A program made the position numbers and the translations under genes. The notes under the pieces are model-generated. The model saw only the letters and a list, made by a program, of their open reading frames with translations. It had not been told where the DNA came from and ran no database searches. From contig JACTVC010000003.1 of NCBI GenBank assembly GCA_018417955.1, positions 806,001 through 870,000 on the forward strand: a DNA stretch of 64,000 nt. The letters run 5' to 3'. The DNA comes from Laccaria trichodermophora. Taxonomy: Eukaryota > Basidiomycota > Agaricomycetes > Agaricales > Hydnangiaceae. This document shows, in pieces, positions 48,826 through 64,000 of this stretch; the stretch's first letter is position 1; every line of letters starts with the position of its first letter.

Positions 48826-50661
48826 ATGTCTCCCTCACCGCCCGCATTCTTCCAAAATGCTCACGATATCACCGTCTCAGGAAACGCACAGTTCAATGCT
48901 GCCGGTCGCGATATCATAGTTAATTATGGGTCTCGGTCCTCTGCTCCTGCAGGTATGTTAAAATTTATGTTATACTCATCAATACTACCAATATTATGCA
49001 TTACATCTAGCACTCCACGACTTGCTTAGGCCTGTCAGTAACGCTACCCATACTCGCGCAGGTCATGTCGCTCGATGTGATCCTGGAACTCGTTCGAACG
49101 TGATTGCTCAGATCCGACAGTGGCTCGATGGCCATGGTGATGATAAGCGAGCTGTTGTCTGCTGGCTTAATGGACCAGCTGGCTATGGCAAATCGGCATT
49201 GGCACAGACCATTGCGGAGCGCTATGCTGCCGAGGGCCGCCTTCTAGGGAGCTTCTTCTTTTTGCGAGGTGCAGGTGAACGCAGCCATATATCTCGCCTG
49301 ATCCCTACTCTTGCATATCAGATCTCCCTTTCTGTTCCTGCTGTTAAACCTTTGCTTGAGAAGGCTCTCGAGGATGAGCCGGCCCTGCTAGGGGTGACTG
49401 TCTCTTTGGCTCATCGACTTCAAAGACTCATCATAGAGCCAATACATCTCTATGCTTCACGACTCTCCTACACTTCACAACTCTCCTACACCTCTGAAGA
49501 CATCTTTAGTCTTCTGAGGAAACAGGTTGTTGTTATTAATGCTCTTGATGAATGTGATGACAAAGCTGAGATGGCAGACTTCATTGATATCTTACTCGGT
49601 GCATCTTTGGGCAGGACTGATCTTCCTTTCCAGATTCTCCTCACTAGCATGGAGAGGAGCATATTCGAAGCCAGTTTGATTGTTCTGAAGCTCAGTTTTT
49701 GCACTGTCTGGAGCTACAGAAATTTAATGCTCGTCTGGACATCCACATATATCTTCAGAGGGCATTTGGTCACATCTATGACCGAAATTGGCGAATTATG
49801 CAGAGAATACCAAAGCCCTGGCCATCAGCTGAAAATCTCTTTGCACTTCTTGACAAGTCTGGCAGTTCATTTGCATTTGCTGCTACCTTGATCCAATATG
49901 TTGGTGGAGATCGCATGCCACACAAGGCCTTGGAAAGACTTCTGGCATCAGGAGCTAATGCTCTAGATTCACTCTATGAACAAGTTCTCTCTTCTGTTTC
50001 CTTAACAGAAGACTTCTGTCGGATTCTTGGAACAATCATGATTCTGGAGAATAACAAGTCTATTGCTTTTCTTAGCTCTCTCCTCTCTCTGCAGCATGAG
50101 GAGGTCATTTGTGAGCTATTGCAAGTACAGTCTCTTCTTGAAATTCCTGGGGATGATCATAAGCCTATTATGCTCTATCACACATCTCTCCGGGATTTCC
50201 TGACCATGAAATCACGATCAAAGCAATATTTCATTGATCCTCCTCTCCAACACCTTCATCTGGCCATACAGTGTTTGAAGCATCTGGCAGAATACCCTTC
50301 AAAAGACTTTTTTGAGGGTGATGTAGCCAACTATGCTTGCTTTCATTGGCCAAACCATATTCTTTTTGGATTCCAGGAGCAAGGATTAAATGTGGATGAA
50401 AGAATTCTGACCTCTTTGGTAACTCTCATTAAAAATTTACTGACTTTTCAGGGTAAGACATGGTATAATACCATGGCAACTGTTGTAAGCAAGGGAATAG
50501 TGTTAAGCTCTATGAAGGATAGAAAGATTTTGTTTCAAGTCAGTTATTTGCAATTCTCAGATGGTCATCATCATACTGTTAACATGTATAAGACATTACA
50601 GGGGTCAAGTGCTACAAAGAATTTGATCAAGATATTTCAACAAGTTATTGATTTCTATGAG
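48826..50661 (+). pseudogene. NACHT/STAND NTPase, frameshifted
   Basis: The ATG at 48826 gives MSPSPPAFFQNAHDITVSGN, AQFNAAGRDIIVNYG: the short N-terminal motif seen before many agaricomycete STAND proteins. After an intron (GTATGT near 48954, acceptor 49012) comes LLRPVSNATHTRAGHVARCDPGTR, Walker A GPAGYGKSALAQT (near 49173), SFFFLRGAGERSHISRLIPTLAYQ and Walker B VVINALDECDDK (near 49530). At about 49650 the frame changes: TSME-RSIF... runs out, while GEEHIRSQFDCSEAQFLHCLELQKFNARLD continues the normal protein one frame over. The downstream part (PWPSAENLFALLDKSGSSFAFAATLIQYV, LYHTSLRDFL) is open to 50661 (IDFYE). Walker B reads IN where most relatives have ID. One frameshift in otherwise preserved coding sequence suggests a young lesion or an assembly error. 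Confidence 0.75.
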
Positions 50662-52776
50662 GTAAGAGTTTATAGCTAGGATATCTTCACTAATTTATAA
50701 AGATTTTTGAACAGACAGTAAGTAACATGAGAATAATGCTGCTCAAAAGTTAATGTATAAGCTGCATAGGAGGTATGTAGTAATAAGTAACTAAAAGGTA
50801 TAAAAATAAAATATTAACCTTTTTTACAGAATGTAAGCCAAGACATATCAACATTGTATTGCTGTTGATAAAGCACAGGAAGTAAGAACAAAACAGGTAT
50901 TAAGAAAAGAAGAGTTAAATTCTTTTTCTTGCAGAATGTGTTTACAAATTGTTCAAGTTTTTATATGTTCTCATGGTTGTCATTAGTTGGTGGGCAATTG
51001 TTTTGAAGAAATGCTGCATCTTATCATCAGCTGTCTCTATCTTTTAGCAAGTAAGTAACAACTGTTGATCCTGCTACTTATACAGCTAATTATAAATCCA
51101 GAGAGTAATATATAGTCTATTCACATTGTCTCTGTATGTCTATAACAGATTTTTTTTAGTGGGTAAGTGATTGTAAAATATTTGAAATAACTTGGTTCTG
51201 ACTCAATTCTCTGCTGAATCTACCATCTCTTAGGCAGTAAGTTGTTTGCCTATTGATTATTATTTCTTCTAATAACTCATTCTCTGGCCATTTCATTTCA
51301 TTTGCACCATTGTGATGATCATGATGTGCTTTTATCTATTTCAGGAAGTATGCTTTCTTGCATTTTATTTTGCACACCTCTAAAACACATGCTCTGGCCA
51401 TTCTTTTACAGAATGTGATTTGGCCTAATTATTGATATGCACTCTTCTGGTGACACTGACTGTGGCCTGTCTTGTTTCAGGAGGTGAGTTGGCCTGGTTT
51501 TAAATGTGCACTCTTCTGGTGATACTGACTATGCCTATCTTGTTTCAGCTGGTGAGTTGGCCTGGTTTTAAACGTGCACTCTTCTGGTGACACTGACTAT
51601 GGCCTATTTTGTTTCAGCAGGTGTGTTGGCCTGGTTTTTGATGTGCACTCTTCTGGCGACACTGACTGTAACCTGTGTTGTTTCAGAATGTGAGTTGGCC
51701 TGGTTTTTGATGTTTACTCTTCTGGTGACACTGACTGTGGCCTGTCTTGTTTCAGGAGGTGAGTTGGCCTGGTTTTGATGTGCACTCTTCTGGTGACACT
51801 GACTGTGGCCTGTCTTGTTTCAGGAGGTGAGTTGGCCTGGTTTTGATGTGCACTCTTCTGGTGACACTGACTGTGGCCTATCTTGTTTCAGCCAGTGAGT
51901 TGGCCATGTTTAAAATGTGCACTCTTCTGGCAACACTGACTGTGGCCTGTCTGGTTTCAGCTGGTCAGTTGGCCTTGTTTTAAAGGTGCACTCTTCTGGT
52001 GACACTGACCCTGGCCTGTCTTGTTCTAGTTTGTGAGTTGGCATGGTTTTAATTGTGCTGTCTTCTGGTAACATATATTTTGCTGCTTCTCTTTAGAAGG
52101 CAACTTTCTTTGCTTTTGGCCAATTACTCTTGTCACACACCATCTTTTTTTACTTTTTTAGTTTGTAAGTTTCTTGTTTTTCACTGTATATTTTTCTAGC
52201 AACCCATTTTTGACAGTTTCTTTTTAGCGGGTGAGTTGCTTATATCCTTCTTCCAATCTATTTTACTCTCTTAATTCTTACATATACTTTCCTCATTTAT
52301 ACAAAGTATGTGGTCTCTGCTGCATATTTTATAAGTTTTATTGTATAGCTTTCATTTTTCACCCTACTCATTATTCATTATCAGGTAATTAATCTCCAAT
52401 CAATATCTTTCAAGGAGGTTAGTCAAATTTTAGCATCCAATAGACCAATTTTATAACATCTCTTTGTTTCATCTTTTTAGAATGTAGGTTGTCCATTTAC
52501 TCTCATTTCCATCACTCTGATATATGCTTATTTTAACTCAGATTGTATGTTTTTATTTCCTGTTACAGGAGAATGCTCACATTTGCAGCTTGTATGTCTT
52601 TGATCTATTTCTAGCTTCCAGCACTTTCTCTTTTTGACTATTCTTTTTGTTAGCAAGTATGTATTTCTTTACATTATTTGACCTGGTCACTTATTTCAGA
52701 TATATAGTGGGCAAGTCACCTCTATTTTCTAGCATATCAGAATCTTTGGTCTTATAACATTCTCTCATTTTAGAGG
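50662..52776 (+). other. array of introns separated by single-codon micro-exons
   Basis: Directly after exon end TATGAG (50661) at least 31 junctions read AG|NNN|GT or GC, spaced mostly 45-70 bases. Micro-exon starts and codons: 50715 ACA, 50770 GAG, 50830 AAT, 50879 GAA, 50935 AAT, 50987 TTG, 51048 CAA, 51102 AGA, 51160 TGG, 51234 GCA, 51345 GAA, 51412 AAT, 51481 GAG, 51549 CTG, 51618 CAG, 51687 AAT, 51756 GAG, 51824 GAG, 51892 CCA, 51961 CTG, 52030 TTT, 52097 AAG (GC donor), 52162 TTT, 52228 CGG, 52415 GAG, 52481 AAT, 52542 ATT, 52589 CTT, 52654 CAA, 52708 TGG (GC donor), 52774 AGG. A degenerate junction with AC instead of AG precedes AAA at 52303. None is a stop. The spacers have full intron anatomy: GTGAGT/GTAAGT/GTATGT donors, CTGAC-like branch sites about 25 bases from a pyrimidine tract, and CAG or TAG. 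Confidence 0.75.
51415..52096 (+). repeat. 69-base tandem repeat of near-identical introns
   Basis: Ten successive units carry nearly the same intron of 64-66 bases. Donor side reads GTGAGTTGGCCTGGTTTT, the middle GTGCACTCTTCTGGTGACAC, and the acceptor side TGACTGTGGCCTGTC then TTGTTTCAG. The 3 bases between one intron and the next vary: GAG, CTG, CAG, AAT, GAG, GAG, CCA, CTG, TTT, AAG. The first and last units are more diverged. Confidence 0.9.
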
Positions 52777-52974
52777 GTATGCTTTTTTTCTTGCTGTTAC
52801 TGCTCACCCAATATTCATCTTCAAATTATATAGAGAGATACAGAGCTATAGAGATTCTAATGAGCCTATTTATTTGCAAAATGTCAAGCTTTGTATGTGT
52901 ATTTATCTGTTCTATTTCTTCTTCTTTACTATCTCCATTCTTCTTAGTGGTTGATACATTGCCTATACCAATGA
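52777..52974 (+). other. possible last intron and terminal exon of the micro-exon array
   Basis: After the last clean donor (GTATGC at 52777), acceptor-like sites continue but their donors are degraded (TAG|AGA|GATACA near 52834). The acceptor TTCTTAG ending 52947 is followed in phase 0 by TGG TTG ATA CAT TGC CTA TAC CAA and a TGA at 52972-52974, which would make a short terminal exon. This is a suggestion from splice-site logic only. Confidence 0.25.
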
Positions 52975-55900
52975 TTTCTCTAACATCTCTATAATTGAGT
53001 TATATAGACACTAAGAAGAAGCAAAAGCTCAGTTTCAGTCTCTTACATGCCCATTTGAGTCAGGGATCTCTTAGCTAACAGGTGGTGACAGCTGATGGTT
53101 ATAAACCCAGTTACCCTGTGAATGTTTGTCAGGTCAGCCCAAGATGTCCCTGCCCTGACATCCCACATTCAGCCTTGGAGCATGCCACTGATGTATGTTT
53201 GTACCTCCTCAGCATATACTTGGTTGGATGTCCTGCTGGAGTTCTGCCAGAATTTATACCATTGCCTGTTGGGACCTGTACTGATATATACATAGAATAG
53301 ACATTATATATTGGTTGACCAACACTTTTAGTTCACTTTAACAAAGAAGACAAATACAGAAATACAGTGGCCAGATGAGCAAATGTGAAGATTTGCAAGA
53401 ACTCTCTAAAGTCCAAAATGCTTGCCCTAAATCAAACCAAGTCATGTGCTAAGTTCAAACAAAATTCAACATTCCCTCTCAACATTTCAACCCACAACTT
53501 TTCCTTTGCTGGCAACAAGATACATGTTCCACCTGTTCCACTCACCAGCCTTGTCTCTGGCTCTGGCACCAACCAAGCTTGCCAACATGGTCCAATGATG
53601 GGTTGAACTTGTCCAACTTGACATTCTTATCTAACATCCTAGCAGATTGGTTGTACTGCACTGTCGTGTCACCACCTCCTTTTGAATGATGAGGTAAGCA
53701 AGCCCACCCTGTTCATGAGCAATTCACCCTGTTCCTGATCCCCTCTAACAAGCATTTCCCCTAACCACACTCCAATATGATACCCACAACTGCCATCACA
53801 ACCCGAGCCCAACAACATCATCAACATCTGTCACACCCCCACCAACAATGGATGTACAGCAGATGGTGCTGGTAATGGTAAGTACAACCAGCCCTTGCTT
53901 ATCATACCCATCACTTAACAACCCCAAATAGCCACTGTGTGCTGCACTCTGTCAAATAGAATGGATGGTTGCCCTGGTTTAGTTGCCAGTACATGTTAGG
54001 ATCTGTTCTATTCCTTAGATAGGGCAAGAGATGAGGGAGGGGTCAACATAGATACCACCAGTAGTACTAGACTGGAAGAGAATGAGATATGCAATAGAGT
54101 CATTGTGCAGAGTTAGGTCTGGGAGTGTAAGTGTACAGAGCTAAGTCTGAGAAGCTGGAAGGCATGGAGTTGAGCTCTGAGACTGAAAGGTATGGTGTTA
54201 AGTCTGTTGGAGATGAGGGTAGCATAGGCTCGGAGTTGGAGACTCAAGAATATGCAAAGTGGATAGGACACTAAGTAAAAATGTTAGTGTATTTGTTACG
54301 GTTGTTAAGCATAACGGGCAGTTATTAAGCTTTGAGTTCATTCATTGGTTGGTTGGTTCGTGCTACGTTCCCTTAATTCTACGAGATGATGTAGTCTTTA
54401 GCTATCACTTTGTTATGCCCTTAATAACAACAGTATAGGGTTCTGCAATGCTCTATGCCCAAAGGACCATTGTATAGAGATTCAGTGTCTGTTCTTAAGT
54501 CGTACGCTGACGATGTTCTAGTTCTTAAGTCTTTGACATTGAAGACTTATCAGTTCAAGGTTTCAATAGAGACTCTAAGTCGAAAGACTATAGAGTTCGA
54601 GGGCAACTAAGATCTGAGGGTCTGACATTGGGTTGAACTAAGCCTGTATTGCCTAGGTTCAAGCTACCAAATACAAACGAAAGTACCCTACTTATATACT
54701 AAGGGTACGAATCAAATACAAGTCAAAAGTATGAGTTCATATGACTTGTGTAGAGTCAGATGAATCATACTAAGTCTATATAAGTCTATACAAGTCGTAT
54801 GATTCCGAAAGAGTCATATGAATCTGTCTAAGTAAATATGAGTCATATAAAAGAAATCTGACTGGGATGCATATCTAGAACTGTCCAGTATAGTCTAGGT
54901 ATGTCTTAGAAATATGTAATTGTCTGTGCATGTTTATATGTTGAAAAGAGTTTGTAATAGTATTGGAGTTATGTGATAACTCAGTGTAAGGTGGATTCGG
55001 CATTGAAGTTGAAGTCTGAGGCAAGTTAGTAATGACAATGCAGATGAGAGGCTGAGACAAGAGGATGAAGGAATAAGACAGAAGTTAACTGTAATATCAA
55101 GGATAAGGGTACTTGGTACATGCATAATATTAGTACAAGGTAGAACAATAGAGGGAACAAGGGCCATGAGGGAAGTTTCACAGAGACAAAGATAATCAGT
55201 GAGGAAGTGTGAAGTCAGTGTTGAGGCTTATTGTGAAGAGGGTTGCCAAGGTGGAGGACAGGAGATAAGGTTCAGTCCATAGGACCACAAAAAACTGGTG
55301 GATCAAACTGAACCGGACCATGGACCAGTCTTTTTTTCAGTTGCAGTTCCCCAAATTTGGGGTTGGTCTGGCTGCCAATTGCCTCATTTCAAAAATATTT
55401 TTAAACTGTTCAAAGACCAGTTTTAATTGGTTACAACCAATTAAACAGTCATGTGCATTACATAGCCTTGTAACCATGTTTATTACCTTTAATTGGGTTT
55501 TTGGTTCATCAAAAACAGTTAAGAACTGAGAAAGATATAACTAAATCCATTTTGGTATAAATATTTGTTTCTGCAACTTGTATCAGAATGACTTTAATTC
55601 TAATTCACTCAAATTTTGATCATTTTGCTTGATTCAATTTTTGGATATTGAAACCATAAGTATGTGAATATGCTCACCATGTATCAATGTATGATATGCA
55701 TCAAATAATTTACACTTTCCACATTAAATTTTGCCTGAATCTTTAGAAGATGTAATTCGGTTTCAGTCATAGCTATGTCAAATCTTCATCAAATCTCTTA
55801 CAAATTGGTAGAATGGTGGATATTTACATGCTTTACTATGTTGTATAACTCATTTATTTTTTATGGTAATAATGATTGAGATATAAATGGTTTATATTGG

Positions 55901-57209
55901 TATGATAAATTATATGCAAAAAAAAATGGTCTGGATCAGTCTGACTGGTTCCATAGACTGCAAAAAACTGGTCCTAGGTGGTTTGGTTTGGTTCCCTCAA
56001 TATCCGAGTCAGTCCTAGACCAGTTGCAGTCCATGGTTGCACATTTTAGGGGCAAAAAACCAGACTGAACTGAACATTTAAACACTAGACTTTGTGGAGC
56101 AAAGAACAACAACTGCTTGTTCTATTCAGACTTATTGTGCTTGGAGTTGGATATGCATGTTTGGAGTTGGTTTGCCAGAAAACAAGGTCAGAGTTGGTTT
56201 GGTGTTGGAGTCTGAGAAGTGAGATCAGAGTGGTTGGGTCATGTGAGTGGAAGGGTCATGAGGATGGTTCATGACAGTATGGTTTTCATCCATAATTGAG
56301 TGATTGATACTGTTTTTTTTCACAGTCATGATGGGGACTGAGTATGCATTGAAGGCTTCCTATGACTATCTTCCTGTTCTCATATTGTTATTGTATACCA
56401 TGTATTAGTAGCCAGTATATATAATATATTACCTTTTCCCAGTCTTCCAATTATCAATTGCAAGAATGCAATGAAAGAACTGCTGGTGCTCAAAAAAAGT
56501 GCTACATTTTGACATGTCCATAGATCTACAAAGCATATACCAATGATATTCAGGAGACCTCTAAGTGTAGAGATACATAGGTTCTCTCACTGGGATATCC
56601 TCAGGACATCAGTCACCTGGCATATGATTGTATATGGGAATTCGAGAAGCCTCAGATATCATCTGTGATATCCCATCATATCTTACCCATATCTGGCAAC
56701 ACTCCATCACTGGATCAGCACTGGTCATTTGGCCCTAATGGGCATGTAAGGTATATGTAGATAAAGTACTCATTGCTAAGACTACCACCCTATAGCATTG
56801 TGGACTGATCATTACTTACTGTCTGTTGGAAGATCCTGATAGTTAATTTAATTACAAACTCTTACTTCACTAGTGATGCTGGTAGTGCTTGGAAGTCCAG
56901 TCCCAAGACTGCAAAAAGACTGCAACTGGACTGGACCAAGACTGCAAAAGACTCAAGTTGAGTTGGAAGGGTTTGTTCTCCAGTCTTGCAGATTTGAGAT
57001 TACAAGACTGGTTAATGTGAACTGGTCTTGTTGGGAGGTCTTAGTGATGCCCTACATATTCCTGCTGGATTCCGGTCATTCCGGCGGATTCCAGTGCCAT
57101 TCCAGTGGAATTTACTAGCCAAAATTTCACTCCAGCCATGGAATATTGTTATTCCAGGATTTTCACCAGAACAGTCCCCAGAATGCACTGGAATGGAATG
57201 GCACTGGAA
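52975..57209. other. AT-rich, CpG-depleted repeat-rich region without genes
   Basis: More than 4 kb with almost no CpG dinucleotides except in the block 54290-54860. No ORF shows a domain. It includes imperfect repeats built on the words ACTGCAAAAAACTGGT and ACTGCAACTGG around 55265-56040 and 56890-57020, probably non-autonomous transposon remnants. The composition is like the 3' half of the NACHT gene and unlike the 1-48 kb part. Confidence 0.6.
54290..54860 (+). repeat. CpG-retaining block, possible solo LTR relic
   Basis: This block begins TGTTACGGTTGTTAAGCATAACGG and includes many AAGTCTATA/AGTCATATGA words. Unlike its surroundings it retains CpGs (ACGG, TCGTACG, GACGATG, TCGAAAG). TGTTACG is a common start of basidiomycete LTRs, but I cannot find a matching CA end with target duplication, so the call is weak. 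Confidence 0.25.
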
Positions 57210-57232
57210 TGCAGTGACTGGAATGAACACTA
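57044..57232. repeat. imperfect inverted repeat
   Basis: The left arm contains GATTCCAGTGCCATTCCAGTGG (near 57086-57107). The right arm contains CACTGGAATGGAATGGCACTGGAATGC (near 57186-57212), which is its reverse complement with a 5-base insertion. The spacer is about 80 bases. It resembles a small foldback/MITE element. Confidence 0.5.
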
Positions 57233-57239
57233 AAAATTG

Positions 57240-57895
57240 CCAAATATGGCAACTTCTATATTTTCAGATAAAAATTAGCAATAAAATCAGAAGAAAAAAT
57301 AGGGATGGTGGTAATGATGTTGGGGTACTGTTTACATGGTCTGTGCGCATTTCCTAATATAGTAATTAATGCAAATATAACCAGAAAATCACGGAAAAAA
57401 GAGAAAAAAAATAGGGATGGTGCTCACTATTGGTGATGTTGTTGGGGTATTGCTTACATGGTCTGTGCGCATTTCCAAATATGGTAATTAATGCAAATAT
57501 AGCCAGAAAATCAGGAAAAAAGAATAAAGATGATGTAGACTGTTGTTGACAATGTTGGAGTAATGTTTACATGGTCTGTGCACATTTCCAAATATGGTAA
57601 TTAATGCAAATATAGCCAGAAAATCAGGAAAAAAAGAGAAAAAAGACTAAACATAATGTAGACTGTTCCTGACAATGGTGAAGTAGTGTTCACATGGTCT
57701 GTGCACATTTCCAAATATGGTAATTAATGCAAATATAGCCAGAAGATCAGAAAAGAAGGGGAAAAGGTATACACATGGTGTTAACTGTTATTGACAATGT
57801 TGGACTAATGTTTACATGGTCTGTGCACATTTCCAAATATGGTAATTAGGGGAAATATAACCAGAAAAACAGCAGAGACATGATGTTAACCATTG
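57240..57895 (+). repeat. tandem repeat, about 121-base unit, five copies
   Basis: The unit carries ACATGGTCTGTGC[GA]CATTTCC, AAATATGGTAATTAATGCAAATAT and CCAGAAAATCAGGAAAAAA. Copies of the ACATGGTCTGTG word start at about 57334, 57455, 57569, 57692 and 57814. The array ends exactly against the LTR at 57896. Confidence 0.85.
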
Positions 57896-58129
57896 TGAAA
57901 ACCTATCCTGCGTAGAGGGGATAGGAAACACTGACTCAACGAATACGCGACAAAATTCCAACTGCGTATATGATTCTGAGTGAGAGACGTAATACGAGAG
58001 TATGGAGATGGTGATGGTAAGAAGGAAGGAAGAAGGCACATAGCAGAAGCGCATCTATATGTAAGTGAAAGCCAAATACGTCGAGGGTGTTGCCAAACAA
58101 TGTCCGAATGTAGTAATCCCAGGATTACA
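57896..58129 (-). repeat. 3' LTR of Ty3/Gypsy element
   Basis: On the minus strand the 234-base segment begins TGTAATCCTGGGATTAC and ends GGATAGGTTTTCA, with the TG...CA termini of LTRs. It follows immediately after the polypurine tract at 58130-58141 (AGCAGGGGAGGG on the minus strand). No matching 5' LTR exists at the other end. Confidence 0.8.
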
Positions 58130-58262: not shown

Positions 58263-61200
58263 TCAAGGAGATTGAGATTGAGATGCCAACCAGTCATCGA
58301 GAGCTTGACAATCTTGAAGTTCTGCGCTTGGGAGCCACTTGTCGTGTTCTTGACTGTATCCTTGCCAACAGACAAGGTATTGATATCCTCGGCCTCGTCG
58401 TCTGGCGTCAAGGATTTTGTCAATATAATATTCCTCTTCACCTTCCGACGTAATGATTGGGACAGGTTCAGCGAATTTTCGTGAGGGGAACAGCGACGTG
58501 TCGGACTCGATAAAAGGTAACACTTCAGAGGTGTGGAATGTGGGATGTATGTTTGGAGAATTTGGTAGGTCGAGAGTCACAGTTGAGTGGGTTTCGTCCA
58601 CGTCGATGATGGTATACGGACTGTCGAAGCGTGGCATAAATTTGGCTACCCGTTTTTCACCTTTAGCTTTATATTCGTTTCGACGGTGAAGCGTTGACAA
58701 CCGGACTCGCGAACTGACAGTGAAAGGGAATTTTAGGGAACAGTGTCGATTCGCTTGAATGGCTTGCGCGATCTTTGCTTTTAGCAAATTATCTTGCGCT
58801 TCCATCACATCGGTTTCCAATTGCCTGATGACATGCCATGCGTCAACATCGGCAACAGTTGCAGATGGCTTGGCGGGAATTAAGGGAGGAATTATTCTGG
58901 GGCTTTGTCCCATTCAGAGTTGGAAAGGCGTGAATCCCGTCGACGCATTAATGGTGTTCATCATGTCAAAATGGATTCGGGGCAAAGCACGTACCCAACC
59001 CAATTGGTTTCTTTCGACGTGGTACCGTAGTACTTGGTTCACCGTTTTATTAATGCGTTCGCTCGCGCCATCCATTTCCGGGTGATATGCAGTGGACATT
59101 TTGAGTTTGACCCCAGTTAATTTGTGTAGTGCCTTCCAGAATCTTGATATGAACAATTTATCACGATCAGAGACGATGTCTGTGGGCAGCCCGTTTTCGC
59201 AATACCATTTGTCAAAGAACAAGTATGCGAGATTTTCTGCTGTAATGTCAGTACGTGACGCCACCAGTTGTATGTCACTGCCTAAGCGGTCGGTAAATGT
59301 TATAATGCAGTTTTTATCTTCATCCTCAGGCAATGGGCTGATGAAATCGATGGCAACAGAGTCGCCCCTGTTATCAGGAACCGGTAAGGGGTGTAATGGG
59401 CTGTAAGGCTTTTGTGTTGTTGATTTGTTACGTTGACAGTCTGGGCATGAAGGTACGTAGCCCTGTTCCAGGTCCCGCCGCATTTTAGGCCAGTAATAGG
59501 CGGTCCTCAGTGAACCATACGTCTTGTCAAAACCAAAATGGCCCAAGCTATCATGTGCCAGTGCGAATAACATTTCATGCAGGTCGCCTGTTCTCGGTAT
59601 TATCAAACGGTCGCCAATGTACCAAAGGTCGTCTTTCAATACAAGGTTTTTGAAACTGTGAGTGGCAGCAGGGAGCGTTTTACACCAGTTATCCTCTGCG
59701 TAGCCAGCTTTAACCGAGTTTAGAAACTCCTTGTCGGCCGTGATATTCAATGTCGCATTGACAGATTTCAGAGGGAAATTACAGGCAGCCAGTGACATTG
59801 CTGACTCCAATGGGGTCAGATGTGGCGCAGACCATATACATGCAATAGCGTCGTCTGCAGTGTTGTCCACGCAAAAAGTGTAGGGGTGACATGCGATTTG
59901 TTCTGCCTCCTCTGCAGCACATGGCAATCGGGACAATGCATCTGCCACAGAATTGTCGTCCCCTTTGATGTATACAATCTTGGCATCGAATTGGGACATA
60001 AACTCCATCCATTGTGCCTGACGGCGCGAAAGATCCTTCTGAGTATTGAAATTTTCCAGCGTTTTGTGATCCGTGTAGATGAAAAATTCTGAACCGAGGA
60101 GATCCACCCGCCATTTTTTCAATGCTCGAATCACAGCAAGCAATTCTTTTTCATGTACAGGGTAGTTGAGTTCGGCGTTTTTAAATGTCATGGAGTCAAA
60201 AGCTACCGGTCGTGCACTCTCCCAAGAAGGACCGAAAGAGAGTACTGCTCCCAACCGTTTATCGCTAGCATCTGTGGTCACATAGATTTTATTCTCGGGC
60301 ATCTTTGTTAGGTCAATAGTTGTGAGGCAGTCTCTACCGGTAACAATCGCTTTGATTGCGTTGAACGCAATCTGATATTTTGGCGCCCAACATGGAAATA
60401 TCTTTTCAGATTCTTTCGTCGTTAGTTCGGAAAGTATGCCAGTATGATCAGCGAGTGAGGGTAAAAATGCTGCCAAATATCGTACCAGGCCCAGAAAGCC
60501 TCGTGTTTCTGTTGCGGATTTTGGTTCAGGCCATGAGAGGATGCAGTCAACTTTTTTTGTGTCAGCCTCGATTCCTCGGGCACTGATGTGGTGCCCTAAG
60601 AAATCAATTTCGAGGCAAAATAAATGTGTCTTGTCTGGATTCACATATAGTTTTGCATCCTTCAAGGCTTGCAAGACAGTGCGCACATTTCGTTCGTGTT
60701 CTTCAACAGTGTTTGACCAGATAACAATATTGTCTAAGTAGATGTGGCAAATCTTCCCAATGAGGGAATGTAGTGCTGCTGTCACCTGCCTTTGATGTAT
60801 TGCTGGCGCATTTTTCAAGCCCATTGGCATGACCAACCACTCATAAAGACCTAGTGGTGTTGTCACAGCGGTGAGGTGAACATGGTCAGGGTGCATGCAT
60901 GTTTGGAAAAAACTGTTCGTCATATCGATAGTTGCCCAGATTTTTCCCTTTGCGCAGTCATTTAGGATGTCGTCAATTCGAGGGAGTGGGTGACTATCGG
61001 TAATAGTATTTTCATTCAATTGTCGGTAGTCATTTACCCAACGTGGGAGCACGTTTGGGTTGGCTTTTGGAATAATAAAGGCAGGGGAAGCATATGGCAA
61101 AGAAGATGGTTGGATACGGCCAGCGTCTAAGTGCTGTTGTATTAATATCTGCCATGCCTCTTTGTACTTCCGAGGAGAAGGGTATGTGCAGGTTTTAATT

Positions 61201-63115
61201 GTCTTTTCAGCATTTTTGATGTGAATTTCCGCCAGCACGTTACTGGGTAATTCGTCGACATGCGGAATTGGTTCAAAAATGGGTTTGAATTCATCTTTCA
61301 ATTTCTGTTCGTGTTTCAGTAACGCTTCTGTTGCAGACAACGTTTCGATCTGAGATCGAACTGCAGCGGTGACATCGAAAGGTTTTATTTCTTCCTCTTT
61401 ATTTTTCCGGTTTTTAGAACGGTCGTTACACACCAACATGAGTTCGGCGAGAGCCAGCTTTTTATCTGCTTTTGTCTCCTTTATCTGTTCCCGTAAACGT
61501 GGTTTACGTGGAGGAGGTGGTACAACAGTGGGTGGATTTAATAAATCATAAGAACACGTTTTGTCTATGCAAGTGCGGGCAGTGTGATCTGTAACAATGG
61601 AATTCTGTGCGAGCCAAGGCAGTCCAAGTATAATGGGTGCGCAAAGCCCCAGAGTCACAAGCGCTCTAACTGTCCGAGATGTCCATGTGCAATCTATTGA
61701 AGTGAGGGAAAGTTTAACATAATGGTACAGTGCGGTTTTCTTCTTCTTGTTTCCAAAAGCGACGTCTACGATTTCGGGCGTGTGCAAGCGATACAGTTTG
61801 AGACCAAGTTTATCGATGAGTTCGGGGCATATGAGCACCAAATGTGCGCCGTTATCTATCAAAGCACGGGTTCTCACTGGGAAGTCAGAGATTAGTCCGT
61901 GTATCTGACAGTCCCAGATCAAGTGCTTAGCACGGAATTCGTCACTCACATCTCGGGTAGCAATATCGGCCTCGTCCTTGGAGCTAGACTCATAGATGTT
62001 AGAGGAGTCTGGAAGGACGGCGGCTGTGGCAGCAATGTCTTCATCAGAGTCGACTGCTTCGATGGTAGCAGCGACCGTCTTTGAGGAAGCCTTTGAAGCC
62101 AGCTTTGCAACGGCTTTGGCCTTCTTGGCCGATAAGGCGTCTGACAGCGTAAGGGTTTTGTAATTTTTGCCAGACAGGAAACCATCAGGGCAATTCTGGG
62201 AGCAATGACCTGCGTAAAAATGCCTGCACTTGGTACAGCCTTCATGCTTGTTTAGGAGAGTGCGTTCAGTGTCCGTGAGGGATGGAAGGCGGACGGTTGT
62301 CGAAGAGGAAGAAGATGTGGTGGCATTTGCTTTACGAGACGGTCCTCGTAATCCTTCCATGTTCTGACGTTTCGCTTGGCGCTGAAGCGTTTCCTCAATG
62401 AGGTCCCGCTGGTGTTTCGTCTCAACAGTACGAGCCTCATCAATCAAACGGACGGCAGAGACCCAACTTTTGAAGTTTTTGTCTTTGCGGGCATCGCTAT
62501 GTCGAACGCGTGCCTTCAGGTCGTCATCAAGGTGAGCTTTGAGGTTGTGAAGCGTTCACTCTGAACTTCTCGCATAGCTGAAGCCAAGAGGGAAGGAGGA
62601 GGCAAGAATGGGTGGATCTGGGATCAACACCCATAAGTGAGCAATGAGCAGTTACAAGATACTCAGCTGGCCCAACATGATTATGCATACTGTAGGAAGT
62701 ACAGATATACAAAGCACTACATGTAGTGCAAGAGGATGGCAAGACTGCTGACAAGATGGTGGTTCAAGACAAAAGATCAATATATTATGTAAGATATCCA
62801 AATCTAGCTATATACCACTGTTTGACTATGGCCTCTGGGCATTCCCTTCCAATCCTATATCACAGAGGTGGTTGCGTAAGGCGGCGTCGTCAAAGGCAGA
62901 CGGTGTACCTCGGAGCAAGCAGTTGAGTTTCAATAAATGCTGCGCCCAGTTCCAGAAGGTTAAGTTTGACATTGCGAGTGTGGAAGTTAAGATCTCGTTG
63001 CGTACTTGGTCTTCCCAATCTTGGTGAAGGTAATTAGTCCTGAGTTCCTTCATAAACTCACTGAACGTGAGGGCGATGAGGCATGCACGATCAGCTGCAA
63101 TCCAGTCCCGAACAC
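58263..63115 (-). mobile_element. Ty3/Gypsy chromovirus gag-pol, 5'-truncated and mutated
   Basis: A single gag-pol frame on the minus strand, read from 63115 (RDWIAADRACLIALTFSEFM) to 58263. Gag holds HQDWEDQVRNEIL and FWNWAQHLLKLNCLLR. It is split at 62546-62864 by a solo LTR and resumes KAHLDDDLKARVRHS. Then follow a zinc-knuckle-like CTKCRHFYAGHCSQNC (62240), protease LIDNGAHLVLI (61860), reverse transcriptase from LPRWVNDYRQLNENT to IYLDNIVIWSN (60730), RNase H (VTTDASDKRLGAVLSFG; YTDHKTLENF) and integrase with H2C2 finger (GHFGFDKTYGSL...CPDCQRNK) and DDE residues in AIDFI, VSDRDKLF and GASERINK. A TGA at 58914-58916 separates this from the C-terminal part ending in a chromodomain (DKILDARRRGRGYQYLVCW, WLPSAELQDCQALDDW). 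The element lacks its 5' end and 5' LTR, so it cannot move alone. Confidence 0.93.
62546..62864. mobile_element. solo LTR inserted in the Gypsy gag
   Basis: The 319-base insert starts TGTGAAGCG and ends TATATCACA, so it has TGTGA/TCACA inverted termini. It is flanked by a 5-base direct repeat GAGGT (62541-62545 and 62865-62869). Removing the insert and one GAGGT restores an uninterrupted gag reading across the junction (RNHL-KAHLDDD). This is the signature of an LTR element that inserted and then lost its internal part by LTR-LTR recombination. Confidence 0.8.
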
Positions 63116-64000
63116 TTCAGTCACCCATTTTTGGGTACCTATGAGGTTATCCAATTCTTTGAATTAGAGAACCTTAGTGGTACCCCATTCCAGAGTGGTA
63201 TGGCCCTCATACCAATTCCATCATACCATGGTATGGATGCCACATACCATTCCACCTCATACCATACCATACCATACCATTCCATACCATTCCATACCAT
63301 TCCATACCATTCCATACCATTCCATACCATTCCATACCATTCCATACCATACCATACCATTCCATTCCATACCATACCATACCATCATTCCATAGCTGTC
63401 ACAGGGTGTCTGGGGTCCTTTTTACAAAATATGAAAATTATTTCTCCAGGCTGCAATACTGATCCATTTGGCTCCATTTTTTGTGGATTGGTTCTTCAGA
63501 TTTCTTCTGACATTTTAAGCTACCAGTGGAGGCTATAGGATGAACTTGATCCTTTGAAAATTCACTTGAAAATTAGCTTGATTGGGCTTTATCCCAGGGT
63601 TTGGCCATTTTCACTGTGGATAATCTATCACAAGCCACTTGAAAGTGTATATCTTGCCAGGCCATTTATATTCATGACAAATAAATCAATGTTGTATCCA
63701 TCACAATGGCATGGGCTCTGAAGGAAAACAAGAATTTTGCAAGACTTTATTTATTGCAAAGGCATGAACTTTAGCCAAATTACTACCCAAGACAAGGATG
63801 CCTTCTTCAGATAGAATATGTTCAAAATTTGCCATTTATGAAAAAGTATGGGGTCATTCCATAGGAATGGAATCATCAAAAAACTTGGATTTGGAATCTC
63901 CTCATATCTGCCACTCAGCAGAGCTGGGATTGTGGGGAATTTGGATTTGAAAATTTGAACACAAGCAGGCCAAGACTTCTAATTACAAGCTTCAAGGTAT
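63116..64000. other. AT-rich flank without genes
   Basis: The Gypsy similarity ends at about 63115. Beyond it lies CpG-poor sequence with a pentanucleotide satellite and no gene. Confidence 0.5.
63240..63392 (+). repeat. pentanucleotide satellite (CATAC/CATTC)
   Basis: About 150 bases of tandem CCATA and CCATT pentamers, largely alternating as a 10-base unit (CCATACCATT). It is open in several frames because it lacks stops, but is clearly not coding. Confidence 0.95.

Follow-up and report, generated by a model that had tools for sequence, protein, structure and literature searches.

The window analysed here, a 64,000-nt stretch of a Laccaria trichodermophora contig (JACTVC010000003.1, positions 806,001 to 870,000 of the forward strand), carries on its plus strand an NLR-type gene whose model, like every splice site described below, is judged from sequence alone. 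Exon 1 (MSPSPPAFFQNAHDITVSGNAQFNAAGRDIIVNYGSRSSAPA...; 48826..48952) starts at ATG 48826 and ends at a GTATGT donor, and after a 58-nt intron the frame continues into exon 2 (49011..50661), which encodes the NPHP3_N/NACHT part and the region that follows it as far as ...QQVIDFYE. Pfam matches in 49013-49750 (PF24883, E 3.4e-21; PF05729, E 1.5e-7; both above cut-off) identify the NACHT/NPHP3_N nucleotide-binding domain of fungal NACHT NLR (STAND) genes. No Pfam family is found in 49690-50661, nor WD40, ANK or TPR repeats in the scanned exon parts. The closest named proteins to the receptor come from Laccaria amethystina and L. bicolor (64-71% identity). For another gene of the window the nearest relatives stand at 93-94%, followed by various Agaricales. 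One frameshift at about 49640-49660 divides the NACHT part between two overlapping open frames (48962-49891 and 49648-50679). An Rfam scan of 50,000-54,000 finds no family at the gathering score, and a known RNA family is rejected for that interval. Elsewhere in the window, Tandem Repeats Finder reports repeats at 57317-57872 (about 122 bp, 4.6 copies) and 63243-63394 (10 bp, 15.4 copies), and the minus strand at 58263-62555 holds long reverse-transcriptase/integrase-like frames that look by eye like those of a Ty3/gypsy-type element with a chromodomain-like end.

Beyond 50661 the reading of the gene enters an array of exons of exactly 3 bases and then reaches a stop. Thirty-two such exons are enumerated on the plus strand, with first bases from 50715 (ACA) to 52774 (AGG); 31 are well supported and one is damaged, and a short stop exon closes the stretch 50,662-52,851. 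The proximal exons (50715..51162) are ACA (T) at 50715, GAG (E) at 50770, AAT (N) at 50830, GAA (E) at 50879, AAT (N) at 50935, TTG (L) at 50987, CAA (Q) at 51048, AGA (R) at 51102 and TGG (W) at 51160; that at 51102 is a weaker site, and an exon is called there in only part of the paralogues. The central exons (51234..52230), variable in the family, are GCA (A) at 51234, GAA (E) at 51345, AAT (N) at 51412, GAG (E) at 51481, CTG (L) at 51549, CAG (Q) at 51618, AAT (N) at 51687, GAG (E) at 51756 and 51824, CCA (P) at 51892, CTG (L) at 51961, TTT (F) at 52030, AAG (K) at 52097, TTT (F) at 52162 and CGG (R) at 52228. Much of this zone is a tandem array of 69-bp units, each a 66-nt intron plus one codon (51438..52073; Tandem Repeats Finder, 9.3 copies, 87% matches). 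The distal exons (52415..52776) are GAG (E) at 52415, AAT (N) at 52481, ATT (I) at 52542, CTT (L) at 52589, CAA (Q) at 52654, TGG (W) at 52708 and AGG (R) at 52774, and the terminal exon (52834..52851) reads AGA GAT ACA GAG CTA TAG, or RDTEL and a stop. The predicted spliced tail is TENENLQRWAENELQNEEPLFKFR-(Y?)-ENILQWR-RDTEL.

The damaged exon lies between the central and distal groups (52304..52309). Here TAT at 52307-52309 forms a shifted AG-NNN-GT word, doubtful as a genuine exon: the paralogue alignment puts the conserved K codon, AAA at 52304-52306, one step upstream, where the window copy has lost its AG acceptor. The same place holds AAA in 13 of the 14 aligned paralogues and ACA in g13, always behind AG, which leaves 31 well-supported exons in the window. 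At the place of 52415 the paralogue alignment shows a 3-nt exon word with a GTTAGT or GTCAGT donor. The introns that precede the 32 exons measure 44-108 nt (median 63), and in 22 of the 32 a loose branch-like word stands upstream of the acceptor. Thirty donors are GT and two are GC (AAG|GCAACT at 52097 and TGG|GCAAGT at 52708). The stretch from 50,600 to 52,900 contains 48 raw AG-NNN-GT/GC words, and the 16 that are unlisted as exons are mostly GTAAGT/GTGAGT by-products adjoining a listed site; four of the 16 read as stop codons, and each of these has a better site 4 nt upstream. Overlapping words were removed by eye for the window list; for the automatic calls in the family, overlaps were dropped by score and not by meaning. 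None of the 32 exons is a stop codon, while the unspliced stretch has 34-47 stops in each of its three frames. The first-pass annotation had described at least 31 one-codon exons in 50662..52776, two of them followed by GC, none a stop and all continuing phase 0 from the upstream exon; their number, their coordinates and the GC donors hold, and the tail runs in phase to an in-frame stop exon.

Two further splice-site observations concern the distal part of the array. After the distal TGG (52708 in the window), the 15 core genes of the family and the distant paralogue g18 have a GC donor (GCAAG), conserved although non-canonical; g17 has GT there. At 52385, in the intron before GAG 52415, an AG directly abuts GTAAT; this junction is called in 11 of 18 genes and could be a zero-length recursive splice point.

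The same annotation had proposed counting AG-NNN-GT words with scored splice sites against shuffled sequence and against other spacings. With simple donor and acceptor weights, scored AG-N(k)-GT pairs show a sharp excess at k = 3. The 2.3-kb window array contains 19 pairs at k = 3 (17 at a stricter threshold) and 0-2 at any other k from 0 to 30, and 200 first-order Markov simulations give a mean of 0.2 and a maximum of 2 at k = 3. Outside the array, the rest of the plus strand of the window has three such pairs and the whole minus strand one, so that by this count no array is seen on the minus strand. Across 18 arrays of the family (48 kb in total) the count is 653 at k = 3 and 46 at the next highest k, the latter probably representing fixed words within repeat units. 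These spacing and simulation controls rule out chance or a repeat artefact. Tandem repetition alone is also rejected as the cause of the 3-nt register, since g18 has an array with unlike introns.

The array is a property of a gene family. A protein search of the genome (59.0 Mb, 77 contigs) with the receptor gives 111 matches, the best 30 of which were inspected: the 20 best, which make up 19 gene regions including that of the window (two loci being one gene), and the 10 next best. The suggestion to look for further arrays at the 3' ends of NACHT genes proved fruitful, as 18 of the 19 best regions, the window's among them, have one; g14 shows only the first three sites, and the 10 more distant loci have no array within 1.5 kb, with 0-2 scattered sites each. 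Automatic calling finds 674 one-codon exons in the 18 regions, with between 22 and 91 in a single gene. The longest array, in g13, has about 102 exons over about 6.9 kb, of which 91 are counted in the 674 and one, an ACT lying 22 nt from the exon after it, is doubtful. Two rearrangements were noticed among the paralogues. On contig C76, six incomplete copies of the end of the pre-array exon and the first intron, inverted and about 136 bp long (for example 515828-515963, 293875-294010 and 588181-588314), together with a 49-bp piece, lie about 350 bp past the last codon exon of the C76 genes; none was found in the window. The g12 array (C34:1144492-1154074) has its distal end in two pieces about 9 kb apart, probably because of an insertion.

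Could the array be the remains of a tail that is no longer used? The first-pass annotation had left this choice between a coding tail pulverised into one-codon exons and a decaying relic of one. Nine of the 19 regions (g03, g04, g06, g08, g09, g10, g11, g13 and g15) retain an open NACHT frame of more than 500 codons, uninterrupted by stops across the match. For ten genes compared in pairs, dN/dS lies between 0.26 and 0.58, and by these estimates the NACHT part is under purifying selection. Together with the lack of stops among the 674 codons, the intact frames and these ratios argue that, taken as a whole, the family is no relic. The first half of that description stands, as a tail split into one-codon exons that forms the 3' end of a NACHT gene. 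The window copy itself does show damage, namely the NACHT frameshift and one exon without an acceptor. Because of these two lesions the window copy may be a pseudogene; the frameshift itself may be a sequence error.

The two ends of the tail are conserved between paralogues. Taking the most frequent residues, it starts T-E-N-E-N-F-K-(x)-W and ends K-E-x-I-L-K-W-R, with one residue per exon. In an alignment of 15 core genes, which leaves out g12, g17 and g18, the proximal GAG and TGG occur in 15/15 and ACA in 13/15; distally ATT, CTT and TGG occur in all 15, and AGG in 13 with AGA in the other two. A terminal exon of the form [RK][ED]T..L with a stop soon after follows in 12 of the 16 regions aligned downstream of the last codon, eight of them identified by script and four (g02, g10, g11 and g15) by eye, where the rule in the script took another acceptor or none. 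Among the same 16, g16 and g19 show no early stop, and no equivalent of the terminal exon was found in g17 and g18. Between the conserved ends lies a tandem array, g18 excepted, of mostly 69-bp units (63 in g15, 66 in g17), each consisting of an intron and a codon, and the number of units ranges from about 6-8 in g05, g07, g08 and g19 up to about 80 in g13. In most members an intron of 60-66 nt is the framework that repeats, and within each unit it is the single codon that varies. In g09 there are also higher-order repeats, RIED among them.

Comparison of units within genes reveals how differently codons and introns behave. Among the 16 genes with at least five units of one length, 15 (all except g18) show a mean pairwise difference per codon column of about 0.5-0.9, close to random, whereas intron columns average 0.026-0.19, for a codon/intron ratio of 3 to 27; in g18, which is without real repeats, the contrast is absent. 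A number of intron columns match a codon column in variability (seven in the window gene, nine in g17, and one or two in g03, g08, g09, g10 and g19), in arrays with few or old units. When columns were ranked in eight genes, mostly those with many units, the codon columns were the three most variable of the unit in seven, with introns 86-97% alike; in the eighth, g09, one intron column ranks between the codon columns. Even units with identical introns usually carry different codons: among 163 such pairs in the eight genes, codons differ in 75%, and at two or three bases in 60%, with a mean of 1.75 of 3 bases. The figure is lower for g09, with its higher-order duplications, where the codon differs in 43% of 35 identical-intron pairs. 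Across the eight genes codon difference hardly rises with intron difference. The pattern extends to comparisons between genes. In g05, g07, g08 and g19 the final two array units can be told by introns peculiar to them; although these introns are near-identical between the genes, the first of the two units reads TGG, AGG, TTT and TTT in the four genes and the second CAG, CAG, CCA and CCA. When units of different genes that have no more than two intron differences are paired, the codon is the same in 5 of 31 pairs.

Are these codons translated, or does the spliceosome pass over them? In one reading the array leaves the transcript as a single large intron or a few, or stays in it unspliced, and the 3-nt exons are untranslated relics or decoys. 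Skipping all the exons likewise keeps the frame, a search of protein databases with a typed composite of the spliced tail yields no candidate, and the frameshift and lost acceptor of the window copy would fit disuse. Two annotated L. bicolor proteins can be read in either direction: P0076 ends ...DFYE-E-N-N-F-VGQYFA and P0112 ends ...DFHE-E-H-VSQATITIYGC, which look like one-codon exons (E-N-N-F and E-H) followed by a retained intron. VGQYFA is encoded by the intron after the sixth exon in seven paralogues, and the last residues of P0112 matched none; both are gene models and no proof. Weighing against removal in bulk, the 674 called codons of the 18 regions, throughout which the register of acceptor, three bases and donor is kept, include no stop, against 49 expected from positional composition, and the variable zone has none in 332 codons against 25 expected. 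Formal P values for this absence, such as 6e-23 for the 674, are only indicative, since copies and units are not independent. The order of the codons is also kept in distant relatives. Paralogue g18 has 44% protein identity, and alignment of its introns with those of the others is limited to one 45-nt stretch; its end codons nevertheless match 7 of 15 modal residues in order (shuffle mean 1.2, p 2e-5, from an exon list hand-edited in knowledge of the consensus). With automatic exon calls the observed order score is reached in 1 of 2000 shuffles for g18 and in none of 2000 for g17, whose introns still align with those of g15 at about 68%. A third point in favour is that in 12 of 16 regions the frame continues into the terminal exon and its stop. 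Conservation of codon columns among close paralogues was considered as proof of coding and is not decisive: in the proximal part exon codons score 0.869 against 0.861 for ordinary intron columns, and in the distal part 0.930 against 0.881, a slight excess. The coding argument rests accordingly on the stops, the distant paralogues and the variability. On these grounds we infer that the one-codon exons are translated, and consider it unlikely that the array is discarded in bulk or left unspliced.

Fungal NLRs are regarded as detectors of nonself, and a standing question about them is how their recognition parts become diverse. The reading we favour, and hold to be probable, is that 50,662-52,851 forms the 3' half of an NLR-type (NACHT/NPHP3_N) gene in which each small exon of the C-terminal tail encodes a single residue; this tail would be spliced sequentially and diversified as a fast-changing recognition surface. 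The tail would occupy the place that WD40, ANK or TPR repeats take in other fungal NLRs; the NLR context and the variability of the codons suggest the recognition function. The short introns would be removed one after another by intron definition, by which introns of this size (the median gap between exons in the family is 65) can be recognised. Removal of each intron would leave the next donor intact, so that sequential splicing would avoid two spliceosomes meeting on a 3-nt exon. Exons might be skipped, to give tails that differ in length and composition, and since the exons are 3 nt long and in phase 0, any pattern of inclusion and skipping leaves the reading frame of the terminal exon intact. 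Unequal crossing-over and conversion, which introns so similar would allow, would over the generations alter the number and order of units, which would explain both, as well as higher-order repeats such as that of g09. Homogenisation alone would erase the differences between codons, so strong diversifying selection or codon-directed mutation would have to oppose it; in the proposed mechanism it is diversifying selection that keeps the codons different. A precedent is provided by the NLRs het-d and het-e of Podospora anserina, which reportedly have WD40 repeats that evolve in concert, vary in number and diversify at four residues in each repeat (PMC1805685). As proposed for the Laccaria family, repeats are there exchanged within and between family members, their number varies, and a few codons per repeat are under diversifying selection; the difference is that the het-d/het-e repeat is exonic with four varying residues, whereas here the framework is intronic and a single exonic codon varies.

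A stronger version would make the locus a combinatorial immune receptor with one residue per exon. Many tails would then arise from each gene by exon choice, and the one exposed codon of every unit would be randomised anew, within an intron framework that stays alike, by a process that is directed at the codon and goes beyond ordinary mutation, recombination and selection. We find this version more doubtful still than loss of the array in bulk.

Codon usage in the arrays is peculiar. In the variable zone Ala is GCA in 14/14 cases, Gly is GGG in 20/21 and Arg is AGG in 37/41; Leu and Ser are mixed, and most amino acids have one main codon. Codons ending in C number one in 332 in this zone, and Cys is absent among all 674. 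Within the arrays CpG occurs at an observed/expected ratio of 0.02. Along the window the ratio is 0.04-0.07 at 50-54 kb and 0.20-0.28 at 54-58 kb, against 0.71 just before, 0.94 just after and 0.7-1.1 in most of the window, and 50000-58000 looks like a methylated domain with CpG decay. NNC before GT and NCG both contain CpG, and loss of CpG can thus explain missing codons; the rest may reflect a preference for G before the donor. The near absence of CpG, which suggests methylation-driven loss, also suits a reading in which the arrays act through RNA or DNA, as a splicing delay, a methylation target or a recombination substrate, with incidental codons. Incidental codons would hardly be free of stops, conserved at both ends of the tail and saturated with change in the codon columns of the longer arrays, and we regard this reading as quite improbable.

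Least probable of all is introner-like insertion, in which copies of one young intron entered between the codons of an ordinary coding tail: introns very similar within most genes and diverse codons are what it predicts, but the unit DNA (at least 94 matches at 17 loci) was found only inside arrays of this NACHT family, which disfavours a dispersed introner family, the number and order of units vary between paralogues at dS 0.10-0.21, the codons of matching units are not the same, and the g18 array has unlike introns.

The proposed arrangement has counterparts elsewhere. The micro-exon genes of Schistosoma have rows of tiny frame-neutral exons and encode variable secreted proteins; their exons are of many lengths above 3 nt and they are not known to have a NACHT domain, unlike the gene described here, with its 3-nt exons and its NACHT domain. 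The first-pass annotation knew of no standard gene feature of this kind, a view that does not survive comparison with the truffle Tuber melanosporum. Its NACHT-ANK (nank) family is described, in papers following Iotti et al. 2012, as having codon-sized, 3-bp mini-exons and alternative splicing (PMC4986451, PMC10197012, PMC9815663, PMC3689799), so that by these descriptions the arrays reported here are a variant of a known arrangement, found in an agaric. Compared by published description, both are of NACHT type and form large paralogous families with dozens of 3-bp exons (here from splice-site signatures), and in both a C-terminal recognition part is proposed to diversify; the common organisation of the expanded Laccaria family extends to 18 of its 19 regions. 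The differences lie in the host, an agaric as opposed to an ascomycete truffle, and in the ANK repeats, none of which is present in the scanned exon parts of the window gene; alternative splicing is reported for the Tuber genes, while the Laccaria arrays are read from genomic sequence. Near-random codons inside homogenised introns may be the distinctive feature of the agaric family. Passages of the Pyronema genome paper (PMC3778014) contain nothing on such arrays, and no report of them in Basidiomycota appears in the titles and abstract openings of the open-licence literature searched, which is weak evidence of absence. Splicing in of very short exons is reported in two further papers, for a single 3-bp exon in Drosophila homothorax (PMC7392893) and a 1-nt exon in Arabidopsis APC11 (PMC4674806); unlike the exons of the arrays, these are isolated.

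Together, these observations bear on how a fungal receptor family may diversify. The recombining framework is seemingly intronic, with one exonic codon per repeat, which would separate the substrate of recombination from the protein. With dozens of 3-nt exons side by side, the arrays also offer a natural test of the spliceosome, both of the way it copes with them and of whether exons are chosen in order, stochastically or under regulation. They suggest that standard gene prediction misses such tails. Finally, if a truffle and an agaric both have this arrangement, it would have to be either of deep ancestry or invented repeatedly.
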